From a virus: DNA of 59,110 nucleotides. Below are positions 29,268 through 52,435 of this stretch, piece after piece (the stretch's first letter is position 1; every line of letters begins with the position of its first letter). A program made the translations under genes and the position numbers. The DNA lies in the IMG/VR virus record IMGVR_UViG_3300025626_000029, positions 1-59,110 of that record; one strand, written 5' to 3'. The notes under the pieces were generated by a model. It saw only the letters and a program-made list of their open reading frames with translations. It made no database searches and had not been told where the DNA came from.

Positions 29268-29561
29268 ATGAAAGCGAAGAAGAAAGACTCACGTTTGAAA
29301 AGTGCAGGGGTATCTGGTTACAATAAGCCTAAGCGTACACCTAGCCACCCTAAAAAGTCACACGTTGTAGTGGCTAAAGTCGGAGATAAGGTTAAGACTA
29401 TACGTTTTGGAGAGCAAGGCGCAAGCACTGCTGGTAAGCCTAAGTCTGGTGAGTCAGATCGTATGAAGAAGAAACGTGCATCATTTAAAGCACGTCATCG
29501 CAAGAATATAGCTAAAGGTAAAATGTCCGCAGCATACTGGGCTAATAAGGTTAAATGGTAA
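29268..29561 (+). CDS. Basic conserved phage protein
   Basis: 97 residues, about a third Lys/Arg. The blocks KSHVVVAKVGDKVKTIRFGE, then SGESDRMKKKRASFKARH and NIAKGKMSAAYWANKVKW at the C-terminus are a string I recognise as a family seen in many marine phages. The strong positive charge suggests DNA or RNA contact or a capsid-interior role. It is the first gene of the signalling operon, and its TAA overlaps the next ATG (TAATG). Exact role unknown. Confidence 0.7.
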   Translation: MKAKKKDSRLKSAGVSGYNKPKRTPSHPKKSHVVVAKVGDKVKTIRFGEQGASTAGKPKSGESDRMKKKRASFKARHRKNIAKGKMSAAYWANKVKW

Positions 29562-29719
29562 TGAACGAAACCGATATCAGACTACTAATACTCAACGCTA
29601 CTACATTTACTGTAAGTATGTCACAAATAGAAACAACACTAAAGCTGTTGTTATTAATAATATCAATAGGATACACAGCACAGCGTTGGTACTTTCTACG
29701 CAAAAATATAGACGAATGA
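29561..29719 (+). CDS. Small single-pass membrane protein
   Basis: 52 residues from the ATG overlapping the previous stop. After an amphipathic start (MNETDIRLLILNATTF) residues 27-40 form a hydrophobic helix (LKLLLLIISIGYTA) ending in QRWYFLRKN. The layout resembles small holin-like or antiholin-like proteins common in Bacteroidetes phages. The stop overlaps the next start by four bases (ATGA). It may belong with the signalling genes or modulate lysis; both are guesses. Confidence 0.6.
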   Translation: MNETDIRLLILNATTFTVSMSQIETTLKLLLLIISIGYTAQRWYFLRKNIDE

Positions 29720-29907
29720 TACACAAATGGACTTCAGTTAGAGCAGTATACTTATTAATGTCTGCTGTTTTGTTTTTAGGATTAACCCTTCAGTCTTGGT
29801 GGGTTGTTGTCTTTGTAATCGCTATGCTTAACGTAGGGGTGTGGACTAAGTTTTGTCCAAGCAAATGGTTCTTTGAAAAAATAGGATTCCGCAACACAGA
29901 ATTGTAA
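29716..29907 (+). CDS. Two-helix membrane protein (DUF2892-like)
   Basis: 63 residues from ATG 29716; the open frame reaches 29686 but that would overlap the previous gene by 34 bases. It starts MIHKWTSVRAVYLLMSAVLF and continues WWVVVFVIAMLNVGVWTKFC, so two membrane helices, with a CP dipeptide (FCPSKWFFEKIGF) as in the YgaP-type DUF2892 family. Four-base coupling to the kinase downstream. Role unknown; possibly accessory to the membrane sensor. Confidence 0.55.
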   Translation: MIHKWTSVRAVYLLMSAVLFLGLTLQSWWVVVFVIAMLNVGVWTKFCPSKWFFEKIGFRNTEL

Positions 29908-30806
29908 TGAATGCTCTTGACGGCATCTCAAAAAGGTCAATTGTATGCTTGATTTGCTCCATACTAATTATGCTAACCTTTTTTGTATTTAAGACTCTCG
30001 TAGTATTTAAATACATACATCACTCCACATTTACACATTACTTTGAATGGCTATCTGTAATAGCCTTTATGCCACCTTTCTTTATGGTGGTACAAGAGTT
30101 CTTGCAAAACAAGGCTAAAATTAAAGACGACCTAAGTAAAAAAAATATCTACTTAGAACACGCTGCTAAAATTATACGTCACGATATGCATAGCGGTATC
30201 AATACCTACTTACCAAGAGGTATCAAATCACTGAACCGTAGGCTTACAGATAAGAACATTAAAGACTTGCGTATTAGCGCACCTTTAAAACTTATTAAAG
30301 ACGGCTTACACCACGCTCAGAAGGTGTATGCTGGCGTGTATGAGTTTACCAACTTAGTAAAAGAGAATGCACAGCTAAACAAATCTCCGCACAACATAAT
30401 AGAAATACTAACAGACTACTTAAAGCTCACTGCTTACAAAAATCAAGTAGTATTATCAGATAACTTACCAGACGTATTAGATGTTAATGAGGCATTGTTT
30501 TGTACTGCGTTAGATAACTTTATTAGGAATGGATTAAAATACAACGACAGTGGAACTAAGTGGGTAAAAATATACCACGAAGGCAGTTACCATACAGGTT
30601 CTTATCTTGTTGTAGAAGACAACGGCAGAGGCTTAACAGCTGAAGAGTTTATAATCCTATCGAAGCCTTACACCAGAAAAGAAAACCAGAAAGAAGCTGG
30701 GACTGGACTTGGTTTAAACATTTCTATAGAGATTCTAAAAGAACACGGATACAGCGTGTCTGCTAAAAAAACAGGTAACGGTACAAAAATATATATAAAG
30801 TTATGA
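29907..30806 (+). CDS. Phage-encoded sensor histidine kinase
   Basis: 299 residues. Two membrane helices (about 12-34 and 48-66) bracket a very short outer loop, so sensing is likely within or at the membrane. The dimerisation/phosphoacceptor helix has IIRHDMHSGINTY with His92. The ATPase domain carries all expected boxes: N-box TALDNFIRNGLKYND, G1 VVEDNGRGL, G2 GTGLGL near 265-270. It should therefore be an active kinase. The next gene, a stand-alone receiver, overlaps its end by four bases and is the obvious partner. Complete two-component pairs are rare in phages. The stimulus is unknown. Codon use and spacing match the neighbouring genes, so the pair looks resident rather than a recent insert. 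Confidence 0.85.
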   Translation: MNALDGISKRSIVCLICSILIMLTFFVFKTLVVFKYIHHSTFTHYFEWLSVIAFMPPFFMVVQEFLQNKAKIKDDLSKKNIYLEHAAKIIRHDMHSGINTYLPRGIKSLNRRLTDKNIKDLRISAPLKLIKDGLHHAQKVYAGVYEFTNLVKENAQLNKSPHNIIEILTDYLKLTAYKNQVVLSDNLPDVLDVNEALFCTALDNFIRNGLKYNDSGTKWVKIYHEGSYHTGSYLVVEDNGRGLTAEEFIILSKPYTRKENQKEAGTGLGLNISIEILKEHGYSVSAKKTGNGTKIYIKL

Positions 30807-31240
30807 TTGACACATTAATGCTCATAGACGATGAAAACCTCTTCCACCTTGTGTTTGAAGATGCTTGTTCTATGTTGGACATTGCTCTATCTATAGAGTC
30901 ATTAGACAGCTCTGATGAGGCTGACAGAAAATTTAAAGCTTGGTTTCCAGACGACCCAGACCACGAGCGTCCACAATGTGTATTCGTAGACTTAAACATC
31001 ATTGGCTCTTCTTTTGATGGTATCGAGATGATACGAAAGATAAATACAGAATACGGAAACGGATGTGTTATAGGAATTATATCGAGTAGCTCCGACCAAG
31101 AAGAGATTGATAAAGCTAAAGCTGTAGGCGCTCAGTTCTGGATTATTAAGTCTGATGACATAGAACCACGACTTGAGGAATTCCACAAAGACTACGAAGG
31201 TTACGTAAGTAAAACAAATCCGTTTAAGGTTTATAGATGA
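30803..31240 (+). CDS. Stand-alone response-regulator receiver
   Basis: 145 residues forming one receiver fold and nothing more: acidic pair D9-D10 (LMLIDDE), phosphoacceptor D63 (CVFVDLNI), hydroxyl residue S94/S95 (GIISSSS) and invariant-type Lys116 (WIIKSDD). No DNA-binding output domain follows, so, as with CheY or Spo0F, signal output must be by protein contact or phosphorelay. A longer acidic insertion (PDDPDHERPQ) precedes strand 3. It is translationally coupled to the kinase and to the coiled-coil membrane protein downstream, a plausible output target. Confidence 0.85.
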   Translation: MIDTLMLIDDENLFHLVFEDACSMLDIALSIESLDSSDEADRKFKAWFPDDPDHERPQCVFVDLNIIGSSFDGIEMIRKINTEYGNGCVIGIISSSSDQEEIDKAKAVGAQFWIIKSDDIEPRLEEFHKDYEGYVSKTNPFKVYR

Positions 31241-31782
31241 TAAGCTCTAAGGACACTATAAAGCAAGCCATCCAAAAGGCAGCAAAGAAAAAAGTTTACA
31301 TAGAAGGAAACTTTGTAAAGCTGTTGGGAGATACTTCTGATGAGGAGGTAAAGGCTTATATAGAGGAGTGTAAAAGAAGAGATTTAGCACAGAGAAGAAA
31401 ACGCTTAGATATAACCAAACAGGTTCAGAAACAAAATAAAGAACTGGAGGAAGCAGCAGTAATAAAAGGAGCACTTGTCATAGAGCTACAAAACGAAAAG
31501 AATGAAGCCGAGAGGTTGCGTGATGAAGCTGTAGAAGATCTAGATATGATGCAGAAGCGCACTCAGTTTGAACTAATAGGAACTATTGTTAAAGTCGCTC
31601 TGTATGTAATTGTAGGTGTTGGAGTGCTAACTACCGTTATGTATGCTTGGGCTATGACCTCTGGTACAGATACACAAATTATAGGAAGTACTTGGTCCAA
31701 TATGTTTGGTATACTGCTTACAAACGCATTTAGTATTGTTGGTACGATAATGGGTGTCAAGTACGCAACAGACAAGGACTAA
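31237..31782 (+). CDS. Coiled-coil membrane protein, possible third component of the signalling cassette
   Basis: 181 residues. Residues 1-110 are a highly charged helix (QKAAKKKVYIEG, RRKRLDITKQVQKQNKELEE, ELQNEKNEAERLRDE). Two hydrophobic helices follow (about 112-135, TIVKVALYVIVGVGVLTTVM; about 150-175, MFGILLTNAFSIVGTIMGVK). A cytoplasmic coiled coil on a two-pass membrane anchor is a layout seen in small holins and in signalling adaptors. It starts four bases inside the receiver gene and is the last gene before the scaffold promoter. Function inferred only from context. Confidence 0.6.
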   Translation: MISSKDTIKQAIQKAAKKKVYIEGNFVKLLGDTSDEEVKAYIEECKRRDLAQRRKRLDITKQVQKQNKELEEAAVIKGALVIELQNEKNEAERLRDEAVEDLDMMQKRTQFELIGTIVKVALYVIVGVGVLTTVMYAWAMTSGTDTQIIGSTWSNMFGILLTNAFSIVGTIMGVKYATDKD

Positions 31783-31803
31783 ATTACATATTGATAAAAG
31801 TGT

Positions 31804-31811
31804 TAATTTTG
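31804..31811 (+). promoter_or_regulatory. Promoter box TAATTTTG
   Basis: A TAnnTTTG match 17 bases before the scaffold-gene start. Confidence 0.45.
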
Positions 31812-31828
31812 TAACATAATTAAATTTA

Positions 31829-32983
31829 ATGAACATGGAAAATAAACAAGAAGCTGAAATTGAAAATCAACTTGGCGATGCCGGGTTTAGCTTTTCTGAT
31901 ACAATGCCAGAAGGAACAGAGTCTGCTCCTCCACCAGTGCCAGATAGCTTTGATATAGATTTAAGTAGTGCCCCAGCAGCTGAGGAACAGCAAGTAGAAC
32001 AGGAGCCTGTTCAACAATCTGAGCCAGTTGCAGAGGAGCAAGCTACTGAGCCGGTAGTAGAGCCTACTGGCGAAAGTTCTTTAAATACAGAAACACCCGT
32101 TGCAGAAGAGCCATCTCTTGATGAGTCTGCTGTATCTCGTTACGTCAGCGAAAAGCTTGGCTTAGAGATAGAGAGTCTTGATCAATTGTCAGCTTTTCTA
32201 CAACAAACACAACAGCAACAAGAATCTACAATTGACGAGCGAGTTAAGGTTATCGCAGACTTTGTAGAGCAGACAGGTCGCAACCCAGAAGATTGGTTTA
32301 GATACCAGGCTTTAAATCCGTCCGAAATGGATGATATGACAGCCATTCGTGTATCTATGTCAAACGAATATCCAAACCTTAGTGGTGAGGAGATTGATAT
32401 GCTTGTAGGCTCAAAGTATAAACTTGACGAAGATTATCACTCAGAAGATGAGGTTAAACTTAGCAAGCTACAATTGAAGATTGATGCTGATAAAGCTAGA
32501 ACAGGAATTGATCAGATTCGTTCTCAATTTACTGCTCCAGCAAAACAAAAAGATGAAGCTGTTCAGTCACCTATTGACGACCGTTGGATTCAGAATATGC
32601 AAGAACAAACCAACAACCTAGATGCTGTTACTTTTGAGTTAGCAGATGGTAAGGAGTTTGAGTTCGGTATTAATGATTCTTACAGAAATCAATTGATTGA
32701 CAAGAACCGCAACATTGAATCGTTCTTTGACCAGTACATTAGCCAAGAAGGACAATGGGACTACGATAAGTTCAACATTCATCAAACGCTGATTGATAAC
32801 ATTGATGCGATAGCAAAATCATTGTATCAGCAAGGTATGAGTGACGGACAGCGTAGAGTCGTTAACGAGGCGGCAAATGTTAAGTCAGAAGCACCGGCAG
32901 TAGGTACGGCACAACCTACAGACAATGTCTCACAGCAACTCTTAGATGCGTTGGGTGTAGATAAAACTTTGAAATTTTTCTAA
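31829..32983 (+). CDS. Capsid scaffold protein
   Basis: 384 residues, very acidic and Gln/Glu/Pro-rich in the first 120 (EEQQVEQEPVQQSEPVAEEQ), helical afterwards, with no cysteine-rich or enzyme motif. Composition, size and position directly before the major capsid gene are typical of a phage head scaffold. Start choice: ATG 31829, with ATG 31835 equally possible (MENKQEAEIEN). Scaffold proteins direct prohead assembly and are then lost. No protease motif is visible here or adjacent. Confidence 0.75.
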   Translation: MNMENKQEAEIENQLGDAGFSFSDTMPEGTESAPPPVPDSFDIDLSSAPAAEEQQVEQEPVQQSEPVAEEQATEPVVEPTGESSLNTETPVAEEPSLDESAVSRYVSEKLGLEIESLDQLSAFLQQTQQQQESTIDERVKVIADFVEQTGRNPEDWFRYQALNPSEMDDMTAIRVSMSNEYPNLSGEEIDMLVGSKYKLDEDYHSEDEVKLSKLQLKIDADKARTGIDQIRSQFTAPAKQKDEAVQSPIDDRWIQNMQEQTNNLDAVTFELADGKEFEFGINDSYRNQLIDKNRNIESFFDQYISQEGQWDYDKFNIHQTLIDNIDAIAKSLYQQGMSDGQRRVVNEAANVKSEAPAVGTAQPTDNVSQQLLDALGVDKTLKFF

Positions 32984-33002
32984 AACATAAAAACTTTAAA
33001 TA

Positions 33003-34361
33003 ATGAGTTTAAAAGCAAGTCAGCCATCCGTTAGTGGTGGCGTACAAAGCGCATTTAAGCGCTTAGACCCAGCAAAGTACACTTCTTTAGGTGACTTTAT
33101 TGATGAAGTAAACCGCCCCGATATTCGTGAGGCGTTAGCAAAAACTTACGGTGATCAAGGTATCACAGGTTTCTTGCAAATGACAGGAGCAGTTAAATCT
33201 GCTGGAACAGCTGACAAAGTTCAGTGGTGGGAAGAAGCTCGTCTTCACGCACGTCAAACTGGTGACTGGATCGCTGGTGGTAAAATTGCAGTTACTGTAG
33301 CTGATGAGAAAATCTTTACTCGTGTAAACGATGTATTATTAGTTGGAACTGATCGTTACTTGGTAACAGCTATTGCTGATGTAGGTAGCCCAGTTACTTC
33401 TCGCAACTTGACTGTAGTCAATATGGGAAGCACTGCTTCTAACCCAACTTCTGGTGCTGTTGATGCAGCTATCATTGGTAACTTGTACGGACAAGGTTCA
33501 AGCCAACCAACAGAATACTTGGAAAGCAACGTTGTATTACGTGAGAATCCATACAGCATCTTGAAAGAAACATTCAAGGTAACTGGTTCTCAAGCTACGA
33601 ACATTGGCTACATCAACCTTGGTAACGGTGACTACCGTTGGTACATCAAAGGTGAGATGGATACTCGTCAGCGTTTCTTAGACAAGCGTGAGATGATGAT
33701 GTTGTTAGGTCAGAAAAAAGCTACTGATGTAACCATCGGAGATTACTCTGTAAACGGTTCTGAAGGATACTTCGCTGCAATTGAAGATCGTGGTATTGTT
33801 GAAACTGGTGGTGTGGTTAACACATTAACTGAGCTTGATGCAATCGTTACTGAATTAGATAAGCAAGGAGCTGCTCCAGAATACGCTATCTACGGTAACA
33901 CTGCTCAGATGTTGGCAATTGATGACATGGTAGCTTCATTGAATGGTGCTTCTGGATTTGCTTCTGGTGGTCCAACTACTGGTTCTGCTGCATTTGGCGC
34001 ATTTTCTAATGCTGACCAAGCTGTACGACTTGGATTCAAGTCATTCGGACGTGGTGGTTACACATTCCACAATAAGTCTTGGAAGTTGCTTAACGACCCA
34101 ACATTGTTAGGTGGTTCTGACTTCAAGGGTGTAATGATTCCTTTGACTTCTGTAATTGATCCTAAAAGCGGTTCTCGTGCAGCAGCTCTAGAGATGAACT
34201 ACAAAGCAGTTGATGGTTACTCTCGTGAAATGGAGCACTGGATGACAGGTTCTATCCTTGGTGTTACTAACACTAATGACGATAGCTTGCAATTCAACTA
34301 CCGTTCAGAATGTAACTTGGTTACTCGTGCAGCTAACCAGCATGTTTTGATCCGCTCATAA
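33003..34361 (+). CDS. Major capsid protein
   Basis: 452 residues immediately downstream of the scaffold. The region VQWWEEARLHARQTGDWIAG followed by small beta segments, then IKGEMDTRQRFLDKREMMML and MEHWMTGSILGVTN, follows an HK97-like major capsid pattern seen in Bacteroidetes and marine phages. Codon use here is the most uniform in the window (frequent ggt, gct, cgt, aac), as expected for the most highly expressed gene. A strong terminator follows. The exact A- and P-domain borders cannot be assigned by eye. Confidence 0.8.
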   Translation: MSLKASQPSVSGGVQSAFKRLDPAKYTSLGDFIDEVNRPDIREALAKTYGDQGITGFLQMTGAVKSAGTADKVQWWEEARLHARQTGDWIAGGKIAVTVADEKIFTRVNDVLLVGTDRYLVTAIADVGSPVTSRNLTVVNMGSTASNPTSGAVDAAIIGNLYGQGSSQPTEYLESNVVLRENPYSILKETFKVTGSQATNIGYINLGNGDYRWYIKGEMDTRQRFLDKREMMMLLGQKKATDVTIGDYSVNGSEGYFAAIEDRGIVETGGVVNTLTELDAIVTELDKQGAAPEYAIYGNTAQMLAIDDMVASLNGASGFASGGPTTGSAAFGAFSNADQAVRLGFKSFGRGGYTFHNKSWKLLNDPTLLGGSDFKGVMIPLTSVIDPKSGSRAAALEMNYKAVDGYSREMEHWMTGSILGVTNTNDDSLQFNYRSECNLVTRAANQHVLIRS

Positions 34362-34375
34362 GAGCACAATACATA

Positions 34376-34412
34376 GGAGGGAGCCTTAGGGCTCTCTCCT
34401 TTTATTTTTTTT
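34376..34412 (+). terminator. Strong terminator after the capsid gene
   Basis: GGAGGGAGCC pairs with GGCTCTCTCC around a TTAG loop, followed by TTTTATTTTTTTTT. Confidence 0.9.
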
Positions 34413-34431
34413 TAATTTAATATTCAATACA

Positions 34432-35253
34432 ATGGCTAATACGACAGCTAAAAAATCACCTGGTCGTCCTAAAAGAGAGGCTGCACCAGAAGCATTACCA
34501 ACAGCAAAACCTGTAGACTATTCTGTTAAACAGGTATTCAATCCACAAACCACAAGATTCTACGAGATTATAAACGGTGGTGGTATCGTTTGTAGAATTA
34601 AATCTGAGGTTACTGTTTACGATCCAGTAAAGCAGGTAACTACAGCATTAAGATATTGTCCTAACGAAAAGACAATTTATCGTGATGAACAAAGTCAATA
34701 CGCTAGAAGAGAGCATGTAATTTTTAGAGATAAGATGTTAGCTGTTGAATTTACAAACCCGAACCTAATTAACTTTTTAAACATGCACCCAGACAATGTC
34801 TCTAATGGTGGTGGTGTTTTTAAGTTAATCGATAAATCAAAGACAGCTGAAGAAGAATTAGACCGTGAGTTTGATTTACATGAGGCTATCTCTCTGATTA
34901 AAAATAAAGACATTCAAGACCTCTTACCGGTTGCATTATCGTATGGTATCAATGTGAACCAGAAGAACGCTGAGATCAAGCGAGAATTGCTTAGAGACGC
35001 TAAGATAAACCCAGAGAAGTTTATCAAGATGTTTGACAACCCAGAGGTCATGTGTCGCTCTGCTGTTATGCAAGCTGGAGAGTTTCAGATTCTCAGTCTT
35101 ACGGAAAACGGTGTTTACTGGTTTGACAACAATAGATTAATTGTATCTTGCCCTCCGGGTAGCAGTCCTACTGACGTTGCTGTCCGCTTCTTCATGACTG
35201 AGAAAGGAGCCGCAGTTTACGACCAAGTTGTAGAACAGCTAAACAATATCTAA
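34432..35253 (+). CDS. Capsid-proximal protein with AT-hook-like N-terminus
   Basis: 273 residues. The start (TAKKSPGRPKREAAP) contains a GRPK core like an AT-hook, suggesting DNA contact. The middle is mixed alpha/beta (FYEIINGGGIVCRIKSEVTV, VIFRDKMLAVEFTNPNLINF), and helices follow. It sits alone between two terminators, just after the capsid gene, so it is probably a separately expressed virion or head-associated protein. No family recognised. Confidence 0.6.
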   Translation: MANTTAKKSPGRPKREAAPEALPTAKPVDYSVKQVFNPQTTRFYEIINGGGIVCRIKSEVTVYDPVKQVTTALRYCPNEKTIYRDEQSQYARREHVIFRDKMLAVEFTNPNLINFLNMHPDNVSNGGGVFKLIDKSKTAEEELDREFDLHEAISLIKNKDIQDLLPVALSYGINVNQKNAEIKRELLRDAKINPEKFIKMFDNPEVMCRSAVMQAGEFQILSLTENGVYWFDNNRLIVSCPPGSSPTDVAVRFFMTEKGAAVYDQVVEQLNNI

Positions 35254-35279
35254 TTTTCTGTTACATAGAATGTTAAGCA

Positions 35280-35310
35280 AAGGGGTTGCCAAAAGCAGCC
35301 CCTTTTCTTT
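35280..35310 (+). terminator. Terminator
   Basis: AAGGGGTTGC and GCAGCCCCTT form a stem around CAAAA, followed by TTCTTTT; the promoter box at 35314 follows directly. Confidence 0.85.
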
Positions 35311-35313
35311 TCG

Positions 35314-35321
35314 TATATTTG
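35314..35321 (+). promoter_or_regulatory. Promoter box TATATTTG
   Basis: A TAnnTTTG box right after the terminator and 20 bases before the ATG at 35342. The longer open frame starting at 35270 would span both signals and is rejected. Confidence 0.6.
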
Positions 35322-35341
35322 TAGTATCTAATATCAATCAG

Positions 35342-36085
35342 ATGGCAAGTGTAAACAGAGTATATACAGCATTAAAAGACCTGGTCAACAAAGATCAGAA
35401 GGGATTTGTATCTCCAGCTGTATTCAATAGTTTTGCTGGTTTAGCTCAGATGAACATCTTTAACAGATTGTTTGACGAGCATAGAAATGCAATGCGTTTC
35501 CGTAGAGCTGGCATTGACCCAGGTAAAAGTTTAGGCAAGACTAAAAATATAGATGAGGATTTATCTGTATTTCAGAAGAAGCAAAAGTTAACTCAGGCAA
35601 ACGGAGTATTCTCTAAGCCTAGTGACTTAGCTAGAGTTTCTTCAATGACTACAAACAGTACATATGTATTTGGATCTAGTGTAGGTACAAACATACAACT
35701 GATGCATAATCAAGAAGATATTGATCGTGCTCTAATGAGTGACCTGTCTAACCCAAGTGAAACTTCTCCAATAGCTTTAATTGGTGATGATATAGAAGTA
35801 TTTCCAACTACTATTAAAAAGATTGAGCTAAGATACTACAAGCTACCCCAAGGTTTAAATCCAACAACCACAGCAAAGACAACAGCCCAGCCTAAGTTTG
35901 GGTACATATCTACTGTTCCTGGTGTTGAGATATTTGATGCTACAAACAGTATAGACTTTGAGCTACCAGAGCATTTCTTTGGAGACTTGGTTGTAGAAAT
36001 AGCCCAGCTTATTGGTATTAACCTACGTGATTCTGCTGTCGCTCAATACGCAACGGTAGAGAAACAGAAAGAAGAGAATAAATAA
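35342..36085 (+). CDS. Ring/adaptor-like structural protein 1
   Basis: 247 residues from ATG 35342 (MASVNRVYTALKDLVNKDQK), chosen because the upstream extension covers a terminator and a promoter. The helical start followed by a beta-rich second half (IEVFPTTIKKIELRYYKLP, FELPEHFFGDLVVEIAQLIG) is a pattern I associate with head-tail ring or adaptor proteins encoded after the capsid gene in short-tailed Bacteroidetes phages. It overlaps the next gene by one base. The role is inferred from order and pattern. Confidence 0.6.
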   Translation: MASVNRVYTALKDLVNKDQKGFVSPAVFNSFAGLAQMNIFNRLFDEHRNAMRFRRAGIDPGKSLGKTKNIDEDLSVFQKKQKLTQANGVFSKPSDLARVSSMTTNSTYVFGSSVGTNIQLMHNQEDIDRALMSDLSNPSETSPIALIGDDIEVFPTTIKKIELRYYKLPQGLNPTTTAKTTAQPKFGYISTVPGVEIFDATNSIDFELPEHFFGDLVVEIAQLIGINLRDSAVAQYATVEKQKEENK

Positions 36086-36825
36086 TGTCGTTAGAAACCG
36101 TATCAATAGATCAGATTGTCAACGACTTCATGTTAACCATGGGGTATGATGACTATACAAGCAATGCTCCAGAGGTTGTTGTAAGAAACTTTGCTCTTAG
36201 GGGAGTACGTGAGATTGGTTTTGACATGGGTCTAAAAGTAAAAGCAGCAGAGCTAACAGTAGACCAAACAAAAGGAACAGTTACTTTGCCTACAGATTTT
36301 GTAGGCTTGTTAAAGCTAGGCGTTATAGGTGGTGATGGTCTTGTTTATCAGTTTATAGAAAACAGAAACATTAACCTTATATCTAATAGAGGTAAGGACG
36401 TTATTCCTAACTACAGTGCTTTTGATTCAGAGGTATACAGAAACTATATTGCTAATGGATCACAAGGTCGCCTGTATGGTATGGGCGGTGGTAAAGGTGC
36501 TGGAGAATACCGGGTAAACTTTGACCAAAACAGAATTGAGCTTTCAACAAATGTAGGATCCGCTACAGTAGCTATAGAGTACATAGCTGACGAGGCTTTA
36601 TCTACATCACCTAGTGTACATAAGTTTGCTGAAGAAACAGTAAGAGCTTACATATACTACAAGCTCATAGAGCGTAAGAGTAATGTACCTGCTGTAGAGA
36701 AGTCTAGAGCAAGACAAGAGTATTACAATGAGCGTAGAAAGTCTAATGCACGAATGAAGTCATTTGGTAAGCAGGATGCATTAGCAACGATTAGAAAGAA
36801 TTTCAGACAGTCGCCTAAATATTAA
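36085..36825 (+). CDS. Head-tail adaptor / tail tubular A-like protein
   Basis: 246 residues. A helical N-terminus (NDFMLTMGYDDYTSNAPEVV, FALRGVREIGFDMG) leads to beta segments with TVTLPTDFVGLLKLGV and an end rich in helices (VRAYIYYKLIERKSNVP, then RARQEYYNERRKS). The LP-x-DF-x-x-LLK motif and layout resemble T7 gp11-type tail tubular or adaptor proteins in podoviruses. It is followed two bases later by the large stabilisation-like protein, matching the gp11-gp12 order. Identity moderate. Confidence 0.6.
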   Translation: MSLETVSIDQIVNDFMLTMGYDDYTSNAPEVVVRNFALRGVREIGFDMGLKVKAAELTVDQTKGTVTLPTDFVGLLKLGVIGGDGLVYQFIENRNINLISNRGKDVIPNYSAFDSEVYRNYIANGSQGRLYGMGGGKGAGEYRVNFDQNRIELSTNVGSATVAIEYIADEALSTSPSVHKFAEETVRAYIYYKLIERKSNVPAVEKSRARQEYYNERRKSNARMKSFGKQDALATIRKNFRQSPKY

Positions 36826-36827
36826 TT

Positions 36828-39800
36828 ATGGCTATAGATAAGCTAACCCCAAGGTATCTAAATAAAGATAGCGATGAACGTCTCGTAAAGAACGTAGAGA
36901 TGACAGACGCATTAAACTTGCGTATATCTACTGAAGACGATGGCGATGGTATTGTTATTAAAAACGCTTATGGTAATGTTGCAAAAAGCTTTAACATAGC
37001 TCCAGCTTCTGGAACTAGCAAAGTTGTAGGTTCTGTTTCTCATGAGCAGTTAGGCGTTATTATATTCTTTATATATAACAGCAATAACAGCCACTCAATA
37101 TACCAGTACAAGTCTTCTACAGGATCCTCTACAAGGGTTTATCAGGATTCCGTGTTAGGATTTACAGCTGATTCTTTTGTAAAGGGTGATATCATAGAGT
37201 CTAACACAGGCGATATACTTTTATTCTTTAATGATAGTGAATCAGATCCAAAGAAGATTAATGTAACCAAGGCTATAGCTGGTAACTACCCTTCAAAATT
37301 TACTACAGGTACTGATGAAGAGAAGTTACTTTTCTTAACTGTTGCTAAACAGCCGCCTTTAGACCCTCCTACATATAATATTGTAAACAACTCAGCGCTA
37401 AAAGAAAATAGAATCTTTAACAAGGTGTATCAGTTTGCTTACAAGTATGTATATGACGATGGAGAGCATTCAGCATTATCTCCATACAGCTCGTTAACCT
37501 CTTCTATAACACAGTTAAGAGATGGCTTTATAACAGAGTCTGCTAAAAATTTTTACAACCAGATAAATATTTTTGTTAAAAATAGTGTAGCTGATGTAGA
37601 TAAAATAGTTGTATACGCAAGGGAAGGTAACGCTGGTCCATTTTTTGAAATAGAAGAAAAGACAAATCTTCATAATAGTAATGCTGTAACTATAAATTTC
37701 ACAGATGATAAAAGAGGTTCACTAGTTTCGTCTACAGAACAGAACAAACTTTTTGATAATGTTCCTTTAAAAGCTGACAGCCAGGAAATAGTTGAAGGTA
37801 GATTAATGTATGCTGGTTATACAGAGGGGTATGAGAATATTGACACAACCAGTGAACTAATTAGCAACTATAAACACGTTGATAATTCTATAGCTGTTTC
37901 CTTATCTCAATCAACAAATTACGCTGTTTTATTAGACTATAGTGGACTACCTTCTACTTTTACAGAGGATAGAGTTTTATACTTAAACATAGTTCTTAAC
38001 GCTGATGAAATTAATTTATCTGATAGTGGATTTGCCGATCTATCTGTTAGCACAGATATATTTTTTTCTGATGAAGATGGAAAAAACGTAGATACAAAAT
38101 CAATATCTAAAATAAAAAATGGTATTCAATCTGGTATATCGCCTCTTATTATTAGAGAACAAATAAATATTTCTTCTGGAGATAGTAAGCAAGATTTAAA
38201 AGATGCTATTTATGCTTTAATGCATAACAATCTTTTTAAAGTCAAGCTTTATCCTTTAGGTGACGGAGACTCTATTCGTGTAATGAACGCAAGTGGATCT
38301 TCATTATTTACGGTTGAAAGCGGAGAGGTAAAAGGCTCTTTAACATTTAAATGTACTAGCACCGCTAATGCGGGCACTCTTATTTTTAATCCAGAGTATC
38401 TAGATGTCTATATAAATAGCTTTTACGAAGATGCTAAAAAAAGACTTATTATAAGGTCTGGAAGAATAGTCCTAGACAATGCAGATCCTTCTACTGATTT
38501 TGTTATGACATTAACAAACAGAACGTCTTATTTCACAGCTCCTTTGTTGAAAAACTTAGATGTAGGTAAAACATTCAAATCTGGATCTTCTCACAAGCTA
38601 GGTATTGTTTATTATGATAATAGAAATAGAAGTGGCGGTGTTCAAGAATTAGGAAGAACTTATGTAAACTCCTTAGCTGATAGAGCTGATGAGGACAACT
38701 TGAAGGGATCTGCAAGTGTGGTAATGAGAGTCTCCCATGATCCACCTACTTGGGCTAATAGTTGGGCTCCTGTATACACTGGTAAAGGTTTATCTGTTAG
38801 TAAATTTATATACGGAATAGGTGGTGGTTTTATTCCGTTTAATGAAAACTCCGGAGTATTTAGCACTCCTAATAAAAGAATATATATATCATTAAACACT
38901 CTTTTTGAAAAAGATAATAGCTATGTAAAAGCTTTCGGATCCGATAAAAGTTATTCTTATAAACAGGGAGATAAAATGAGGATAATATCATATGGGTCTT
39001 CAAGTTTAGATTTAAATATATTTAAAGTTGTAGGTCATGAGATATTAGTAGATGATTACAATACGAACCCAATACTTGATAGTTCTACTCCAGACACAGT
39101 AAATTATACAACCGGATCATTTTTAATTATAGAGGAGAATCAAGAAGCTACTGGATTTACCTATAAAAATTTAGAAAACAACGATAGCAAATGGTTTGAC
39201 GATTGCATTATAGAAGTGTATAATGATAATCAAGAGAATAAAGAAAGTATATACTACGAAATCGGAACTAAGTACGATGTTGTATCTGGAGCTCATGAAG
39301 ACGACAGGGTTACAACAACTCCTAGTTTTATAATTACTTCACAAAGCGGTAGTGATGTTGAAGGTACTACTACAGACAGAATATTTAAGGGAGATATTAT
39401 AACTTCTGGTAGCTTTAGTATTACTGTAGGTAATGTATACAAAGAAGGTAATACTTATTATTTCTTTGCTGAAGAGACAACAGATTCTACGTTTACACTA
39501 GATGTAGCGTATGCTGGAACAGTTACAAACACTGACAAGGTCATTGAGATAATACAGGGTGATGCATATATGCGACCTAGAGTTATGTTTGCAGCTCCTG
39601 ATCAAATATCAAAAGGAAGGTTTAGAAAAATGCCTGGATATAACGGAATTGTTAGGTTTATAGATGATTACTCTGTAAGCGATTTCTTTAATTCTGAAAG
39701 CAGTTCTATTGGTAGACCTATTGCTAGAATCGATAATGCTAAACAGCAAAAAAGAAAAGCATCTATAACCTATTCTGATTTTTATTCAGCAGATGGTTCT

Positions 39801-41054
39801 GAGTTAAATCTATCATCTTTTAATTTATCACTAGCGAACTATAAAGATTTAGCCATAGAACATGGTTCAATAAAAAGTCTTGTTAGTTACAACCAGTCGT
39901 TATTCTTTATACAAGAGCGTAGAGCTGGTGTACTAGCTGTTGGTAAGAATGTAATACAGACGGGTAGTGGTGATGATTTAGTTACATTAAGTACAAATGT
40001 TTTAGGAAATGAAAGATACTTTACTGGTGAATACGGGTGTGGGAATAATCCAGAGTCCGTAGCTCATTATAACGGTAAAATATTTTTTGCTGATGTAAAT
40101 AGCGGAGACTTAGTAGCTGTATCTTCTAATGGATTAACATCTATTAGTGATAAGACAATGTCATCTTTTATAAACAAGAAGTTCAACGCTGTCTCAAATG
40201 AGACTAGCCATAAGGTTATTGGTGGCATTGACAAAGACAACAAAGAGTATATTGTTACTACACCAGCAATAAGTGGTAGTCAAGATTCATTTACGTTAGG
40301 GTATTCTATAAACAATAACGTATTCACTACATTCTATAGTTTTGAACCAGAGTCTATTGTTAGCCTAAGAGGTTTCTTGCATACTTTTAAAGACGGTTAC
40401 TTATACGAGCACAACGAAACAGCTAGTAGAAACACGTTTTACGGAGCTTCAGCTGCTCAATCTTTAGTTGAAGTTATTTCTAAAAGCTCTCCTTCTGCCG
40501 TAAAGACTTATGAGTCATTATCCTTGGAGGGTAACACAGCGTGGGACACAACTATTTCTACAACTAATCAATCAGCTGTTATAGATGATACGTCTTATGG
40601 TGAGAAAGAAGGTTTTTACTACGCCTATGTACACGGAGCTACTACTAGCAGAAACGGAACAGATAATATCACTACAACAAAAAGCACAGATGAGTTTTTT
40701 GGATTAGGAATTGTAGATAGTGTATCGACTAATACCATTACGTTTAAGAATGATATATCCTCTATGAGTTTTCCTCTGGGTGTTTCTTCTTTCTTATATA
40801 AGGTAAATAACACGCAGCTTGTAGCATTGTCTTTAACAGCTTCTAGTATTTCTGGATCAAATCAACTAACTTGTAACGCAAATGTATCTGGATTAGCGCA
40901 AGATGATGTCGTTGTATTAGTTGCAGATTCATCTATTGAGGGTGACCAGATAAGAGATTACTTTGCTAAAATCAAACTAACAAAAACAGATACAAATCCT
41001 ATAGAATTATATGCTGTAAACGCAGTGGTAACAGATTCTAAGGCACATAATTAA
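36828..41054 (+). CDS. Large tail stabilisation/nozzle-like protein
   Basis: 1,408 residues. The N-terminus KLTPRYLNKDSDERLVKN, then EMTDALNLRI and NAYGNVAKSF strongly recalls the start of stabilisation or nozzle proteins of short-tailed phages, where repeated blades follow. Here repeated blade-like strings occur (YQYKSSTGSS, LLFFNDSESDPKKINV, FQFAYKYVYDDGEHSAL-type, SLFFIQERRAGVLAVG, VAHYNGKIFFADVNSGDLVAV). No cysteine or enzyme motif. It probably forms the tail tube nozzle beneath the adaptor. There is no N-terminal signal. Confidence 0.6.
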   Translation: MAIDKLTPRYLNKDSDERLVKNVEMTDALNLRISTEDDGDGIVIKNAYGNVAKSFNIAPASGTSKVVGSVSHEQLGVIIFFIYNSNNSHSIYQYKSSTGSSTRVYQDSVLGFTADSFVKGDIIESNTGDILLFFNDSESDPKKINVTKAIAGNYPSKFTTGTDEEKLLFLTVAKQPPLDPPTYNIVNNSALKENRIFNKVYQFAYKYVYDDGEHSALSPYSSLTSSITQLRDGFITESAKNFYNQINIFVKNSVADVDKIVVYAREGNAGPFFEIEEKTNLHNSNAVTINFTDDKRGSLVSSTEQNKLFDNVPLKADSQEIVEGRLMYAGYTEGYENIDTTSELISNYKHVDNSIAVSLSQSTNYAVLLDYSGLPSTFTEDRVLYLNIVLNADEINLSDSGFADLSVSTDIFFSDEDGKNVDTKSISKIKNGIQSGISPLIIREQINISSGDSKQDLKDAIYALMHNNLFKVKLYPLGDGDSIRVMNASGSSLFTVESGEVKGSLTFKCTSTANAGTLIFNPEYLDVYINSFYEDAKKRLIIRSGRIVLDNADPSTDFVMTLTNRTSYFTAPLLKNLDVGKTFKSGSSHKLGIVYYDNRNRSGGVQELGRTYVNSLADRADEDNLKGSASVVMRVSHDPPTWANSWAPVYTGKGLSVSKFIYGIGGGFIPFNENSGVFSTPNKRIYISLNTLFEKDNSYVKAFGSDKSYSYKQGDKMRIISYGSSSLDLNIFKVVGHEILVDDYNTNPILDSSTPDTVNYTTGSFLIIEENQEATGFTYKNLENNDSKWFDDCIIEVYNDNQENKESIYYEIGTKYDVVSGAHEDDRVTTTPSFIITSQSGSDVEGTTTDRIFKGDIITSGSFSITVGNVYKEGNTYYFFAEETTDSTFTLDVAYAGTVTNTDKVIEIIQGDAYMRPRVMFAAPDQISKGRFRKMPGYNGIVRFIDDYSVSDFFNSESSSIGRPIARIDNAKQQKRKASITYSDFYSADGSELNLSSFNLSLANYKDLAIEHGSIKSLVSYNQSLFFIQERRAGVLAVGKNVIQTGSGDDLVTLSTNVLGNERYFTGEYGCGNNPESVAHYNGKIFFADVNSGDLVAVSSNGLTSISDKTMSSFINKKFNAVSNETSHKVIGGIDKDNKEYIVTTPAISGSQDSFTLGYSINNNVFTTFYSFEPESIVSLRGFLHTFKDGYLYEHNETASRNTFYGASAAQSLVEVISKSSPSAVKTYESLSLEGNTAWDTTISTTNQSAVIDDTSYGEKEGFYYAYVHGATTSRNGTDNITTTKSTDEFFGLGIVDSVSTNTITFKNDISSMSFPLGVSSFLYKVNNTQLVALSLTASSISGSNQLTCNANVSGLAQDDVVVLVADSSIEGDQIRDYFAKIKLTKTDTNPIELYAVNAVVTDSKAHN

Positions 41055-41060
41055 AATACG

Positions 41061-41068
41061 TAAATTTG
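41061..41068 (+). promoter_or_regulatory. Promoter box TAAATTTG, 4 bases before ATG
   Basis: A TAnnTTTG box followed by CACT and the ATG at 41073, another predicted leaderless start. Confidence 0.5.
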
Positions 41069-41072
41069 CACT

Positions 41073-42005
41073 ATGGATCCAATTACAATGTCACTTCTCG
41101 TAGCTCAAGGTGTAGCCGGTCTGGGTAAGACTGGTTATGGTTTGTATCAGCAGAATGCTGGTAAAGCTGGTTTAGCTGGAGTACAAGAAGCTTCACGCAT
41201 GAAGCCGGCTGAATATGCCGAGATGTTAAAACAAGCTAAGTCTGGTCAAGCTGTACAGCAGCGTATTAGCGAGATAAACAAGGCGTTATCTACATCTACA
41301 GAAGCTTTACAGCGATCAGGTTCACGAGCTGTTATTGGAGGTATAGGTAAGGTTGTTGATGCAGGAACAGGAGCTACAAACCAGTTACTAGCACAACAGC
41401 AAAGAGATATTATGTCTGCGTTAGGCGCTTCTGCTATGGGTTCTGAAAGACAAATAAATAGAGATACACAGCGTGAAATGCTTGAACGTCAAGGATTCCA
41501 AAATGCCATTAATGCAGGTGTTCAAAATACTGTTAGTGGACTAAGCGATATTGGAAGAACTATTGGTTATGGGGCTTCTATGAGAAATGAGAGCAAAAAA
41601 TCTGGATCTGATTTACAAGACCCATTAGATTTTGAGATGAAAAATCCTCTGGAAGAAACAAATATACCTCAAGTAGGTGACCCTCTTCTAGAAGGTGGTG
41701 TTAATGCAGCTGGTATTGCCGAAATGTACAGACCCACTTCAAGCCCTATGATGGATTTAACTCTAGAGGAAGAAGAGGCAGCACGTAGAGCTATTAGCCA
41801 AATGAATAACTTTAAATATGGTGGTATGATGCAAACTCCAGGAGAGTTTAGTCATGATACTAATCCTATACACATGATCCAGGACGGAGAAGTTATTGGA
41901 GAAATGACAGGAGGGGAATACGTTTTGAACCCAAAACAAGCAAAAGCTATATCTAAAGAATCAAAGTTCTTCCGCAATTTGTTAAAGACAAAAAGATTTA
42001 AATAA
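41073..42005 (+). CDS. Internal virion protein with hydrophobic N-terminus
   Basis: 310 residues. The N-terminus (MDPITMSLLVAQGVAGLGKT) is hydrophobic and Gly/Ala-rich, like T7-type internal virion proteins that enter the host envelope. A helical middle follows. The C-terminus holds FKYGGMMQTPGEFSHDTNPI, HMIQDGEVIGEMTGGEYVLN and PKQAKAISKES, a module I recall from other phage virion proteins; its KYGG string echoes the Gly-Gly tag of the 3382-7956 cluster. It overlaps the next gene by one base. Role inferred. Confidence 0.6.
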   Translation: MDPITMSLLVAQGVAGLGKTGYGLYQQNAGKAGLAGVQEASRMKPAEYAEMLKQAKSGQAVQQRISEINKALSTSTEALQRSGSRAVIGGIGKVVDAGTGATNQLLAQQQRDIMSALGASAMGSERQINRDTQREMLERQGFQNAINAGVQNTVSGLSDIGRTIGYGASMRNESKKSGSDLQDPLDFEMKNPLEETNIPQVGDPLLEGGVNAAGIAEMYRPTSSPMMDLTLEEEEAARRAISQMNNFKYGGMMQTPGEFSHDTNPIHMIQDGEVIGEMTGGEYVLNPKQAKAISKESKFFRNLLKTKRFK

Positions 42006-43378
42006 TGGAGGAGTTCGTACCAAGCACTGTAATTCAAACACCAGACTTTCTTGGATTGGCGCAACAACGCCAAGACCAAATGAAGAAAGAAAAAGCGGCT
42101 ACCTATAACTACATTAAAGATTATAAGCAGACGGGTGAAAACTACTTAGAAGGTTTTATACCAGCTGTTCAATCACAGTGGAATCAAGTAGAGCAAGCAA
42201 TGAGTGGTATTGCTTCTGATGATAATGTAGGAACTAGACGAGCTTTAGATAACGCTTATGCTAATTATTCCCGTGTCGCTGGAACAGCAAAACAACTAAC
42301 AGAAAGCTATCATACAAACACCTCAGCATTTAGATCTGACCCTGCTGGTTATGGAGTGAGCTTTGATGAGTATGATTTAACATCCCAGGCATATAGATTC
42401 ACACCTCAGACTCCTAATAGCTTGTTAGCTATGAGTGATTACGTTTTACCAAAGCGTAAGGAATTTGAGATAAACGATCCAGTAACAACAGCTAGACAGT
42501 TCTATAATGATTTAGGCGATCGCATTAAAAACGAGTTTACTAACCCTACTACTGGTCAGATAAATATAGAGGCTGCTGAAAATGCTGTTAGAGATCTTTT
42601 AGATTCTAGGATGAATGACCCTTACTCAGAAAACGTTTTAAAGGCTACTGTTTGGGGAGGTATAGATGCCGGACTACTAGGTCAAGAAAAACAAATAAGA
42701 AACGAACAGCAGTTTCAATTTATAGTACAGCAACCAGAAGATAAGAAAGAAAGATTCTTAGGTCGTTATAACGAAGCTGTTGTAAACAATTTCTTGTCTT
42801 TAATTCCAAGAGAAACCAAACCTACTAGTGAGGCTGGTAAGGCTATTGAATCTTATAAAAATGTAAGAGGATATAAAGTATCTAGCTTATTGATATACGG
42901 AGCCAAGAAACCTAGCGCTAGTGATGTTACAGCATTCCCTATACCAGAATCTGACATTATTGAAACTTCTAACAAATACGATGCCGCTCAAGATGCTCAA
43001 GGCAGAGCTAAAGAGCTTAAGGAAGATATTATAGAAGTTATGGTTGATGGTGACGGAGAGGTATTAGTCAAGGTGCAGGGAGCTTTTAAAGACAAAAACG
43101 GAAACAGCTTGCCTCCTGGAGTTATGGCTATTGTAGGAAACTTACCAGGTGTTGACGCTGACGCTAACAGAGATGTGTATACAACTGTTAGACCAGCCAA
43201 GCCAGATGAGATTGCTAAGATTCAAAGCAATCCAGGGTTATTAAGTTTACTAGAAAGAACGAAACAGGGTAAAATGCCAATAGCTGTGGATGCTGTAAAC
43301 CCACTGGGTGTTGGCGGTCAAAATTCCGTACCTTCGTCTAGTGGTAATCCACTAAATCTAAACTTACCCACACCGTAA
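42005..43378 (+). CDS. Virion structural protein
   Basis: 457 residues. Starts MEEFVPSTVIQTPDFLGLAQ, then a long helical region (RQDQMKKEKAATYNYIKDYK) and beta-rich parts, with a Pro/Asn/Gly-rich disordered end (NPLGVGGQNSVPSSSGNPLN). No enzyme motif. It lies between the hydrophobic internal protein and the giant protein, a position that in podoviruses usually encodes the second of three internal ejection proteins. Specific function unknown. Confidence 0.6.
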   Translation: MEEFVPSTVIQTPDFLGLAQQRQDQMKKEKAATYNYIKDYKQTGENYLEGFIPAVQSQWNQVEQAMSGIASDDNVGTRRALDNAYANYSRVAGTAKQLTESYHTNTSAFRSDPAGYGVSFDEYDLTSQAYRFTPQTPNSLLAMSDYVLPKRKEFEINDPVTTARQFYNDLGDRIKNEFTNPTTGQINIEAAENAVRDLLDSRMNDPYSENVLKATVWGGIDAGLLGQEKQIRNEQQFQFIVQQPEDKKERFLGRYNEAVVNNFLSLIPRETKPTSEAGKAIESYKNVRGYKVSSLLIYGAKKPSASDVTAFPIPESDIIETSNKYDAAQDAQGRAKELKEDIIEVMVDGDGEVLVKVQGAFKDKNGNSLPPGVMAIVGNLPGVDADANRDVYTTVRPAKPDEIAKIQSNPGLLSLLERTKQGKMPIAVDAVNPLGVGGQNSVPSSSGNPLNLNLPTP

Positions 43379-43402
43379 AAAGATTAATAAAAAATAATCA
43401 AT

Positions 43403-46400
43403 ATGCCTCAAGATAAACTCTCTGTACAGGATTTTGCATCACAGATAAAGGCTAAGTATCCAGAGTACAACGAATACGATGATTCTGTATTAGTTGACGC
43501 TATACTAGAAAAGTACCCTGTATACAAAGGGCAAGTAGATTACGCTCCAAAAAAAAAAGAAGCTACAGCTGGAGAGTCTTTGGTTGGACCATCAGTATCC
43601 ACAGAACCGACAGAGGTTGAGACACCACCAAATCCTTTCTTTGAGTCACTTAAAAAAGCTGATTTAGCGTTTGGTAGAGGTATTGCAAAGACTCCTATAT
43701 TAGCGGAGTTAGTATCTGGATCTAACAGCGTTGTCGGGGGAATACTTGATTACGCTAACATGGCTTACGACTTTGCTCGTTCTTCTGGAATGCCAGGTGG
43801 TTTTAATAGTGCTTTATTTCAAACCATAACATCTTTTGATGAACCTAACTTGGTTGAACAAGCGGCAGATATTTTTGCTAACAACTCAGAATACATAAGA
43901 AATACTCGTAACGCACAAGCGGGCATCACTAAAGAAGAGGCTGAGAAAGGTATTATAGGTTTAGCACAAGATGGTCAGATAGCTAAATCAGCTTTCTTAT
44001 TATTTAGCGGTGCTACAGAGGCTATACCTTCAGTAGCTTTGGCTGCTACAACAGGTGTTGGTACAGTTGCTGTAAGCGCTGGTGGTAATAAGTATCGTGA
44101 GATTGAAAACAATCCAGCATACTCACCGTCAGAAAAATTACTGTTTGCTACCGCAGCTGGTATTGTAGAGGGATTAGCAGAAAAGATGGGTGGGGCTGAC
44201 CTTGCAGCATTTAGAAAGATATTCTCTACACAAGCTTCTACTGAAGCATACAAACAATTTTTTATACAAAGTGTAAAAGCTAGTGACATCTATAAACAGA
44301 TGGCTAAAGGAGGTCTAGAAGAAGGTTTTGAAGAGGCTCTAGTAAATTCGTTTGATCAAATGGTTGCTGGGGTTAAAGAAGGAAAGCCTTTTGAAGTAAA
44401 CAAACTTGTTGACGATTTCTTAGTAGGTATGGTTGCCGGTGGTGGTACCATTGTAACAGCAAATGGAATGAGTGCTCGTGGTTCTATAAAGAATGAGAAG
44501 GCACGTGCAAAAAATGCACAACAGATAAAAGACCTACAGGATAAGAAAAAAGAAGCATCACAAGAACAGGTTAATGTTATTGATGATATGATCAAGAAGA
44601 ACATATCCTCATTACGTACATTAATTGATCAAGACGTTGAGTTCTTTGGTAAGTTTTCTACTGAGGACCAAAAAAGAATTAGAGATATTGATAGTGGGTT
44701 AAACAGTATAGCTAAGAAAAGAGAGCTTACTTCTGATGATTCTCAACTATATCTTTTACAAACAGAAGCTGTAGAACTTCTTGTTGAGAAAGATGCTATT
44801 GAATCTAAGTATCGCAACAACGAGGAAAATGCACTTATTGAAAAAGCTACTGACGAACAAATTGATGAGATTAGAAATCTTGAAGCTGTCATCCTTGATA
44901 AGAAGCAGAGGTTAGAAAATACAGAATCAAAAACAGCAGCTGATTTAATCAAATCTCAAATTGAAACATTAGAGTCAGAGCTGAATAAGAAAATAACAGA
45001 TATAATTGGTACAGTTGAAACTAAACCAGCTGCGCCAACAGAAACATTTGTACCAGAGGACGAACCTACTCCAGTTACTATTGACTTAAATGTAGACAAA
45101 CAAGCACAGCCAGATCGATTTGAGGATCTTATTGATGGTCGTGTAACCATGAAGTCTCCTTCTGGCAAGCAAGTTGCTGGTCGTATTGTTGATGAGGGTG
45201 CTGGTAAGATGTCTTTGCTAACTGACGATGGAGATATAATTGAGCTTGGTAATATGGATGATCTCAAGGGTAATTTTGCCGATGAGATAGGATTAGCTAA
45301 AGCAGAAGAGATAGTATCAATTGATGGTAATAAAATTACTATTCGTGGCGAGCAATATGAAAACAACTATAGCGATCCTCTAGCAGCGATTAACCGTGAC
45401 GATGAAGGCAGTATAGTATCCGTAAATTTGGATGCCGCAAACGGCACTAAAAGAACGTTTAGAGGCAACATAGGAGACGAGGTTGCTTATAACATTATTA
45501 CTAGCCAATACGAGCAAGAAGAATTAGAAAAGCAATTAGAAATTTTAGCTAAACAAGATGAAAAAATCAACCAACAGCTTGCCACGGCTCCAGAAACTGA
45601 AGTCGCTCCCACTCAAACAGCAACTACAAATATTGAGCAAGCTCCCGAACAAGAGCCAGAAGTAGCGCCACAGCCGAAAAAACGTATACAAGACAATCAA
45701 GTTCCGGTCAAAAAAGAGGTAATACGAGTAAAATCTAATGATGGTAGCTACGTAGATTATACTGTTACAACTAATTTAGACGGAAGCTATAAGTCTAGTT
45801 CTATAACTTACGATGAAAACGGTAATGAAACAGGACGCAATACAAGTACTTCAATAGGAAAGGGTTCAACAGCGTTAGATGCTGTAAAACAAAATGTAGC
45901 TGATGAATCATTAGGAGATATAGTTACAGTAGAGTCTACTCAAAGTGGAGAAGATTTTATGAATCCTAAAAAGAAAGCCGCATTAACTTCAGGACAAAAA
46001 AATAAACTTAAATCAAAGCAAGCTCCATCCGAAAAGCCAGCTGTTGAGAAAAAGTCAGAGCCTTCTACCACAGGGGATACCGAACTCCAAAAATTAACCG
46101 CATATGTTGATTACTTTAAATCAAATCCTGAAGCTAAAACAAAGATTCCAGGACCTAAATTCCCTAAAACCTATGGTTTAGATATATCAGTTGAAGTATA
46201 TAACCTACCTAATGGACGTTACGATATAGAAGCTTCATATGATGTAAGAAGAAAAGGAGAGATTTTTGGTTCTACCAGTATGTCGTCAAAAACTAATTAC
46301 GACCTTAACGGTGGATCTTCTTTTGAACAAGCGCTGGATATTGCATTTTCAAACATTGATAATAGTCTTTTAAACAAATCCAATCCTGTGTATACAGAAA

Positions 46401-52210: not shown

Positions 52211-52435
52211 ATGAAAAAGTTCGTAGAGATTTTTAATAATGACAACAGCTACAATGAGAAGACGGTAATAGGTTTTTTATCGTTTGCTGTTATGGTATTG
52301 GTAATGCTTGCCGATGTAATCACTGGAGCGTTTGGAGCACACCTACCTATCAATGAGTTTACTTATAACAGTTTTGTTATTGTTACTTTAGGTAGCTTTG
52401 GTATCGCAGGACTAGAGAAGTTTGCTAAAAAATGA
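52211..52435 (+). CDS. Holin-like protein
   Basis: 74 residues. Two hydrophobic stretches (VIGFLSFAVMVLVMLADVIT and FVIVTLGSFGIAGLEKF) joined by a short linker with GAHLPINEF, and a basic end (KFAKK). This matches a holin type seen next to endolysin-like genes in Bacteroidetes phages. Holins open the inner membrane at a set time. It directly precedes and overlaps (ATGA) the DUF5675-like gene, so the cassette reads holin, wall-acting protein, spanin. Confidence 0.65.
   Translation: MKKFVEIFNNDNSYNEKTVIGFLSFAVMVLVMLADVITGAFGAHLPINEFTYNSFVIVTLGSFGIAGLEKFAKK

Follow-up and report, generated by a model that had tools for sequence, protein, structure and literature searches.

Three consecutive genes in the virus record analyzed here (59,110 bases, the whole of which we call the window) encode a histidine kinase (HK), a single-domain response regulator (RR) and a coiled-coil membrane protein that we designate NX, and their products may constitute a virus-specific three-component relay that operates within the lysis machinery and adjusts lysis, a reading to which we assign a probability of around 0.5, marginally on the favorable side. 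The HK and RR reading frames share a four-base ATGA overlap, as the original prediction had noted, and those of RR and NX are coupled likewise; upstream of HK, the chain of overlaps also takes in the genes for two small membrane proteins that had been overlooked (Table 1). For the 63-aa product, the open reading frame is listed from a TTG at 29686 and the homologs agree with the ATG at 29716. The trio is flanked upstream by tail-fibre-like genes and downstream by a putative scaffold gene (31829) and capsid-region genes (33003), the position originally described for the pair, and is presumably expressed late. A scan for promoters and terminators gave no excess over shuffled sequences. The protein encoded at 33003 belongs to phrog_13704 (virion structural protein) and is about 31% identical to proteins from Flavobacterium elemo, Cellulophaga and Maribacter phages; because of this resemblance, the host of the virus is likely to be a member of the flavobacteria. 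Elsewhere in the window, a GroES-like co-chaperonin gene (9472-10059) precedes the terminase, in the arrangement seen in elemo phages, and a single ORF of 2,930 aa (43403-52195) takes up almost 9 kb of sequence in the late region.

Table 1. Positions in the window of the trio, the neighboring small genes, the mosaic block and the lysis-type genes (nt, unless given as residues; TM, transmembrane segment)
Feature	Position	Strand	Evidence or remarks
54-aa one-TM protein	29555..29719	+	Upstream neighbor of HK in g29555-type cassettes
63-aa two-TM protein	29716..29907	+	Precedes HK in most cassettes
Mosaic block, HK plus RR	29866..31244	+	83% DNA identity to L002; flanks diverge
HK, histidine kinase, 299 aa	29907..30806	+	Pfam, alignment, AlphaFold2, Foldseek
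HK, TM1	residues 9-33		Followed by an external loop of ~7 residues
HK, TM2 into DHp helix	residues 41-112
HK, codon of His92	30180-30182
HK, second DHp helix	residues 124-150
HK, CA domain	residues 160-298
RR, single-domain CheY-like response regulator, 145 aa	30803..31240	+	Pfam, alignment
RR, key residues	D9, D10, D63, S94, K116		Codon of D63, 30989-30991; output domain absent
NX, coiled-coil membrane protein, candidate output protein, 181 aa	31237..31782	+	Alignment, model, TM prediction
NX, small N-terminal helical head
NX, stalk-into-TM1 helix	residues 36-142
NX, TM2 hairpin	residues 147-179
74-aa holin-like membrane protein	52211..52435	+	80% identical to a gene near HK in L002
DUF5675 protein, putative endolysin, 161 aa	52432..52917	+	Relatives adjoin HK elsewhere
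Putative lipoprotein with C-terminal TM, spanin-like, 138 aa	52914..53330	+	Topology, neighborhood

HK matched Pfam HATPase_c (3.3e-14) and RR matched Response_reg (3.2e-7; 30.9 bits, with a cut-off of 30.2). Residues His92, N204/N208, D238/G240/G242 and G265/G267/G269 are invariant among 34 aligned phage HKs, as are the five key residues of the receiver among 38 aligned RRs, for which the mean column identity is 86%. The AlphaFold2 model of HK, built on 34 sequences (mean pLDDT 80.7), places His92 within a long helix, after which come helix 124-150 and then the CA domain, and Foldseek retrieved HK853, ZraS, WalK and CpxA with E values of about 1e-9. HK thus carries its His in a DHp helix pair next to a CA domain with N and G boxes, as expected of a histidine kinase, and RR contains the acidic pair, phospho-Asp, Ser/Thr and Lys expected of a receiver. 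No HisKA-type Pfam match was found for HK at E 1 or better, and a Gly replaces the usual Pro of the H-E/D-x-x-x-P pattern in its H-box (HDMHSGI). These results bear out the original description of a sensor kinase with intact H-, N-, G1- and G2-boxes and of an intact single-domain receiver without a DNA-binding output. From what is known of both protein families, phosphotransfer from HK to RR is very likely. A role of RR as a chemotaxis CheY is not supported, as no chemotaxis genes were recognized in the neighborhood of the cassettes, which contains lysis and structural genes instead.

The window HK has the traits of an intramembrane-sensing kinase (two TMs, a loop shorter than about 25 residues and neither a PAS nor another sensor domain), a description that applies to this copy and not to the whole family, since in many relatives TM2 and the DHp helix are separated by a PAS domain. 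The insert of these longer kinases was considered as an intron, which we rejected because it is an in-frame PAS domain. The kinase of contig L137 has no TMs; the sensor end of HK is variable across the family, while RR and NX stay constant. Some further variants were found: in one kinase (L030:633-1724), about 68 extra residues are inserted towards the end of the CA domain, adjoining its last strands; divergent cassettes (L297-L301) encode kinases of 587-608 aa, a length that makes extra sensor domains likely, and in two of them (L300 and L301) an additional gene separates HK from RR; and the RR or HK frames are broken, by sequencing error or real loss, in L026:6882-7160, L028:2745-3071 and L037:4271-5535.

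The search with HK retrieved 54 viral loci, with HK, RR and NX consecutive in every locus that was long enough. Using the RR alignment, we found at least 560 viral contigs that encode RR (contigs, not lineages) and a single matching contig, L137, among 84,980 bacterial and archaeal genomes, which we consider phage-like because it carries PhoH and a terminase-like gene. RR and NX had no matches, and HK two weak partial ones, in 50,697 phage records; Flavobacterium phage immuto gave no match to the trio. In a set of 83 unique cassettes, HK lies directly upstream of RR (78/78) and NX downstream (75/75); likewise, when NX, which has no sequence in common with RR, was used as the query, RR was found upstream in all 107 distinct cassettes with room for it. 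We therefore consider that the three genes form one unit: the two-gene pair of the original prediction is intact and under selection, but the conserved unit also comprises NX, which had been missed. As judged by sequence comparison, HK-RR-NX is a large family restricted to viruses. In the phage group of the window its distribution is accessory and patchy; the trio is lacking from the closest cultured phages and from most capsid relatives of the window phage.

Divergence is unevenly distributed among the three proteins, RR being the most conserved, with a mean pairwise difference of 19%, followed by HK (36%) and NX (43%). Comparison of the window with contig L002, whose HK is the closest, gave dN/dS values of 0.047 for HK, 0.014 for RR and 0.063 for NX, which are rough estimates, with synonymous sites near saturation, and which indicate strong purifying selection on the three genes. 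The similarity of the HK-RR block to L002 has sharp edges, while the region downstream (31794-44364) matches, with 88% identity, contig L057, which lacks the trio and has other small membrane genes in the equivalent slot. From this discordance we deduce that the pair moves between phages, and that the mosaic block is a footprint of horizontal exchange. In close relatives, the slot preceding the scaffold gene is filled by other genes (L057:7025-8747, L058:7444-8565 and L102:5275-7579) coding for small membrane proteins or for proteins that combine a TM with a coiled coil, to which L057 adds a 360-aa porin-like-looking protein, indicating that this slot is a hotspot for accessory genes.

NX showed no similarity above chance to any Pfam or PHROG family, including holin families and LiaF, and no meaningful relative in the PDB; its one relative in BFVD is an uncharacterized protein from an uncultured phage, with 48% identity. 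The alignment and a model (36 sequences, pTM 0.35) predict a short helical head, then a stalk helix that runs on without a break into TM1, and finally the TM2 hairpin, and two TMs were predicted in 123 of 125 NX ORFs. Hardly any variation is seen in TM2 and its flanks, and the hairpin contains the near-invariant sequence TNAFSIVGTIMGVK. The length of the stalk between two conserved motifs is 45, 52, 59, 66 or 73 residues in 68 of the 72 distinct sequences, and 98 in the remaining four. Steps of seven residues preserve the phase of a coiled coil, and such indels are known from chemoreceptors; this pattern of heptad steps suggests that the stalk transmits a signal, as a phase-sensitive signaling coiled coil. 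NX is likely the output protein of the trio, with RR likely acting on it, and is the evident candidate partner for the direct protein contact originally suggested for a receiver of this type. In one subgroup of cassettes (L040:7691-8191, and similarly in L041, L048, L173 and L193), the gene for a protein of 160-170 aa that has several TMs and a coiled coil at its C-terminal end is inserted between RR and NX.

The neighbors of the cassettes include genes for a Phage_holin_4_1-like protein (1e-3; phrog_199 holin), a PG_binding plus Amidase_2 protein, a GH19 protein, an Rz-like spanin (phrog_739), the endolysin family phrog_33083 and DUF5675. Of 106 distinct cassettes, many of which are on short contigs, 63 have a lysis gene (holin, endolysin or spanin) up to four genes upstream or up to five genes downstream, over several unrelated backbones; among cassettes with full context the proportion is 28/43, about a third having no recognized lysis gene nearby, and all these counts partly reflect shared ancestry. 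In T4-like contigs, a holin-HK-RR-NX block occurs after NrdA (L015, L192) or between the prohead genes and the gp23 capsid gene (L031, L149), and Flavobacterium phage immuto provides cultured relatives of both backbones. Of 17 whole records, 10 have an amidase or DUF5675 gene no more than 2.5 kb away from RR; when the 17 were collapsed to nine lineages, by hand and as a matter of judgement, four had such a gene versus 0.73 expected (p about 0.003). The Pfam search for Holin_4_1 in whole records was too insensitive to be used as a control. Many of the phages carrying the trio already encode a separate holin. SPFH/Band 7 and HSP20 proteins, both related to membrane or stress biology, are also encoded next to some cassettes (L023:2623-3573 and L029:2046-2456).

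In the window, the three lysis-type genes (52211, 52432 and 52914) are 21 kb downstream of the trio, and were assigned to holin, endolysin and spanin, respectively, by topology, DUF5675 and neighborhood, none of them having a curated lysis label. Relatives of all three flank the trio in L002, whose gene order is DUF5675, holin-like, two small TM genes, HK, RR, a small gene, NX and spanin-like; the product of 52914 is 56% identical to that of the gene directly after NX in this contig, and the DUF5675 protein is 80-83% identical to the products of genes directly upstream of HK in L003 and L006-L009. Given the distance in the window and the third of full-context cassettes without a lysis gene, adjacency to lysis genes is common, not universal. 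The comparison of phage homologs and their neighbors made a link to lysis, which the original prediction had contemplated, the leading hypothesis, even if the lysis-type genes of the window itself are remote from the trio.

We propose that HK, as a short-loop membrane kinase, would read the state of the membrane or envelope, with an additional cytoplasmic PAS signal in many relatives, and would phosphorylate RR on Asp63. RR would then dock on the cytoplasmic head or stalk of NX, whose phase-locked coiled coil would convey a conformational change to the transmembrane hairpin; NX could either restrain or trigger the permeabilization of the membrane by the holin, or itself form the lesion, so that the state of the cell would time lysis post-translationally. 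Lysis is a plausible target of the trio, and both the sign of the control and the nature of the signal are conjectural. Speaking against this reading are the 21 kb between trio and lysis-type genes in the window, the lack of any recognized holin or antiholin similarity in NX, the separate holin of many carrier phages and the absence of the trio from most capsid relatives. The fuller formulation, a phosphorylation-gated lysis clock in which a widespread virus-only relay switches NX according to cell state and travels, along with lysis genes, from one phage to others unrelated to it, is more tentative, with a somewhat less than even chance of being right.

Alternatively, the trio could serve superinfection exclusion or guard the envelope, detecting membrane perturbations such as the entry of DNA from a second phage, with NX blocking entry or stabilizing the membrane and the proximity of lysis genes reflecting only the clustering of small membrane genes. 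The suitability of a short-loop kinase for membrane signals, the membrane nature of NX and of the small upstream proteins, the patchy distribution in the phage group of the window and the occupation of the variable slot by other small membrane proteins in relatives are consistent with this; nevertheless, we deem it unlikely, as recurrent co-location with endolysin, holin and spanin genes at different positions of the backbone is not expected for exclusion genes. The two readings overlap, as lysis inhibition in T4 ties the control of lysis to superinfection exclusion.

Quite unlikely is the reprogramming of the host, with RR binding a conserved host protein or feeding a host phosphorelay and NX merely anchoring it. 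RR lacks an output domain and is conserved as if its partner were conserved, and relatives of the carrier phages infect flavobacteria, but the presence of NX in every cassette, with its near-invariant TM2 and phase-conserved stalk, exceeds what an anchor needs; the host phosphorelay contemplated originally now seems less likely than an output encoded by the phage itself. Comparably improbable is that NX acts on the input side, controlling HK as an accessory membrane sensor of the LiaF type, with RR acting on the holin or elsewhere. HK has nearly no external loop, resembling membrane-sensing kinases that use accessory membrane proteins, such as that of LiaFSR (PMC7191749), and NX is a membrane protein encoded together with it. 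However, the sensor parts of HK vary, through the presence or absence of PAS and the loss of TMs in L137, whereas RR and NX are constant, and mirror-tree distances correlate better for NX-RR (0.50) than for NX-HK (0.32), values that co-inheritance alone is enough to produce. Lastly, an artefact, in the form of host genes fused to a phage contig or of passenger genes in decay, would accord with the abundance of kinase/receiver pairs in bacteria and with the absence of the trio from the closest cultured phages, and we reject it as next to impossible in view of the at least 560 viral contigs, which exclude the contig join without phage homologs considered originally, the sole and phage-like match in 84,980 genomes and, for decay, the dN/dS values.

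Lysis timing in phages is usually attributed to the accumulation of holin; the classic example of timing that responds to a signal is lysis inhibition of the T4 type. If the lysis relay proposed here is correct, many aquatic phages would read the state of the cell by phosphotransfer and decide when to burst, which would be a categorically new mode of lysis control. NX, in addition, constitutes a large protein family that lacks annotation and to which the model assigns a specific output role that can be tested. Phages related to the carriers (Flavobacterium immuto and elemo phages) have been cultured, which puts a bench system within reach. Two-component systems as such are familiar, and the literature searched contained none that is confined to viruses and has its own membrane partner in lysis cassettes; nor did it contain phage kinase/receiver pairs in lysis cassettes, although the search covered few subscription journals and is weak evidence of absence.

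HK shares with HPK-type kinases (HK853, WalK, CpxA and ZraS) the DHp pair with its His and the CA domain with N, G1 and G2 boxes, and differs in belonging to a virus-only family, in lacking a Pfam HisKA match and in having HDMHSGI instead of the usual H-E/D-x-R-T-P-L. As in LiaFSR and other intramembrane-sensing kinases, there are two TMs, a very short loop and a third membrane protein alongside the pair; conversely, RR has no DNA-binding domain, NX is a coiled coil plus C-terminal hairpin without a match to LiaF, and many HK relatives add a PAS domain. RR resembles CheY and Spo0F as a lone receiver with the canonical D-D-D-S-K residues, although it has a conserved C-terminal tail, is paired with NX and lacks chemotaxis or sporulation partners. 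In the T/RI lysis inhibition of T4, phage membrane proteins also time lysis upon a signal, but no phosphotransfer is known there, which is expected for the trio, and no sequence relation was seen. Among marine phages, the Curli-linked T8SS clusters of pelagiphages carry a histidine kinase gene, with neither a partner RR nor a lysis context described in the available text of that source (PMC9599517). Finally, the LytST two-component system, which controls the holin-like LrgAB proteins (PMC3507848), is likewise linked to holin-like functions; it is bacterial and acts through transcription, whereas the phage trio is viral and has no DNA-binding output.
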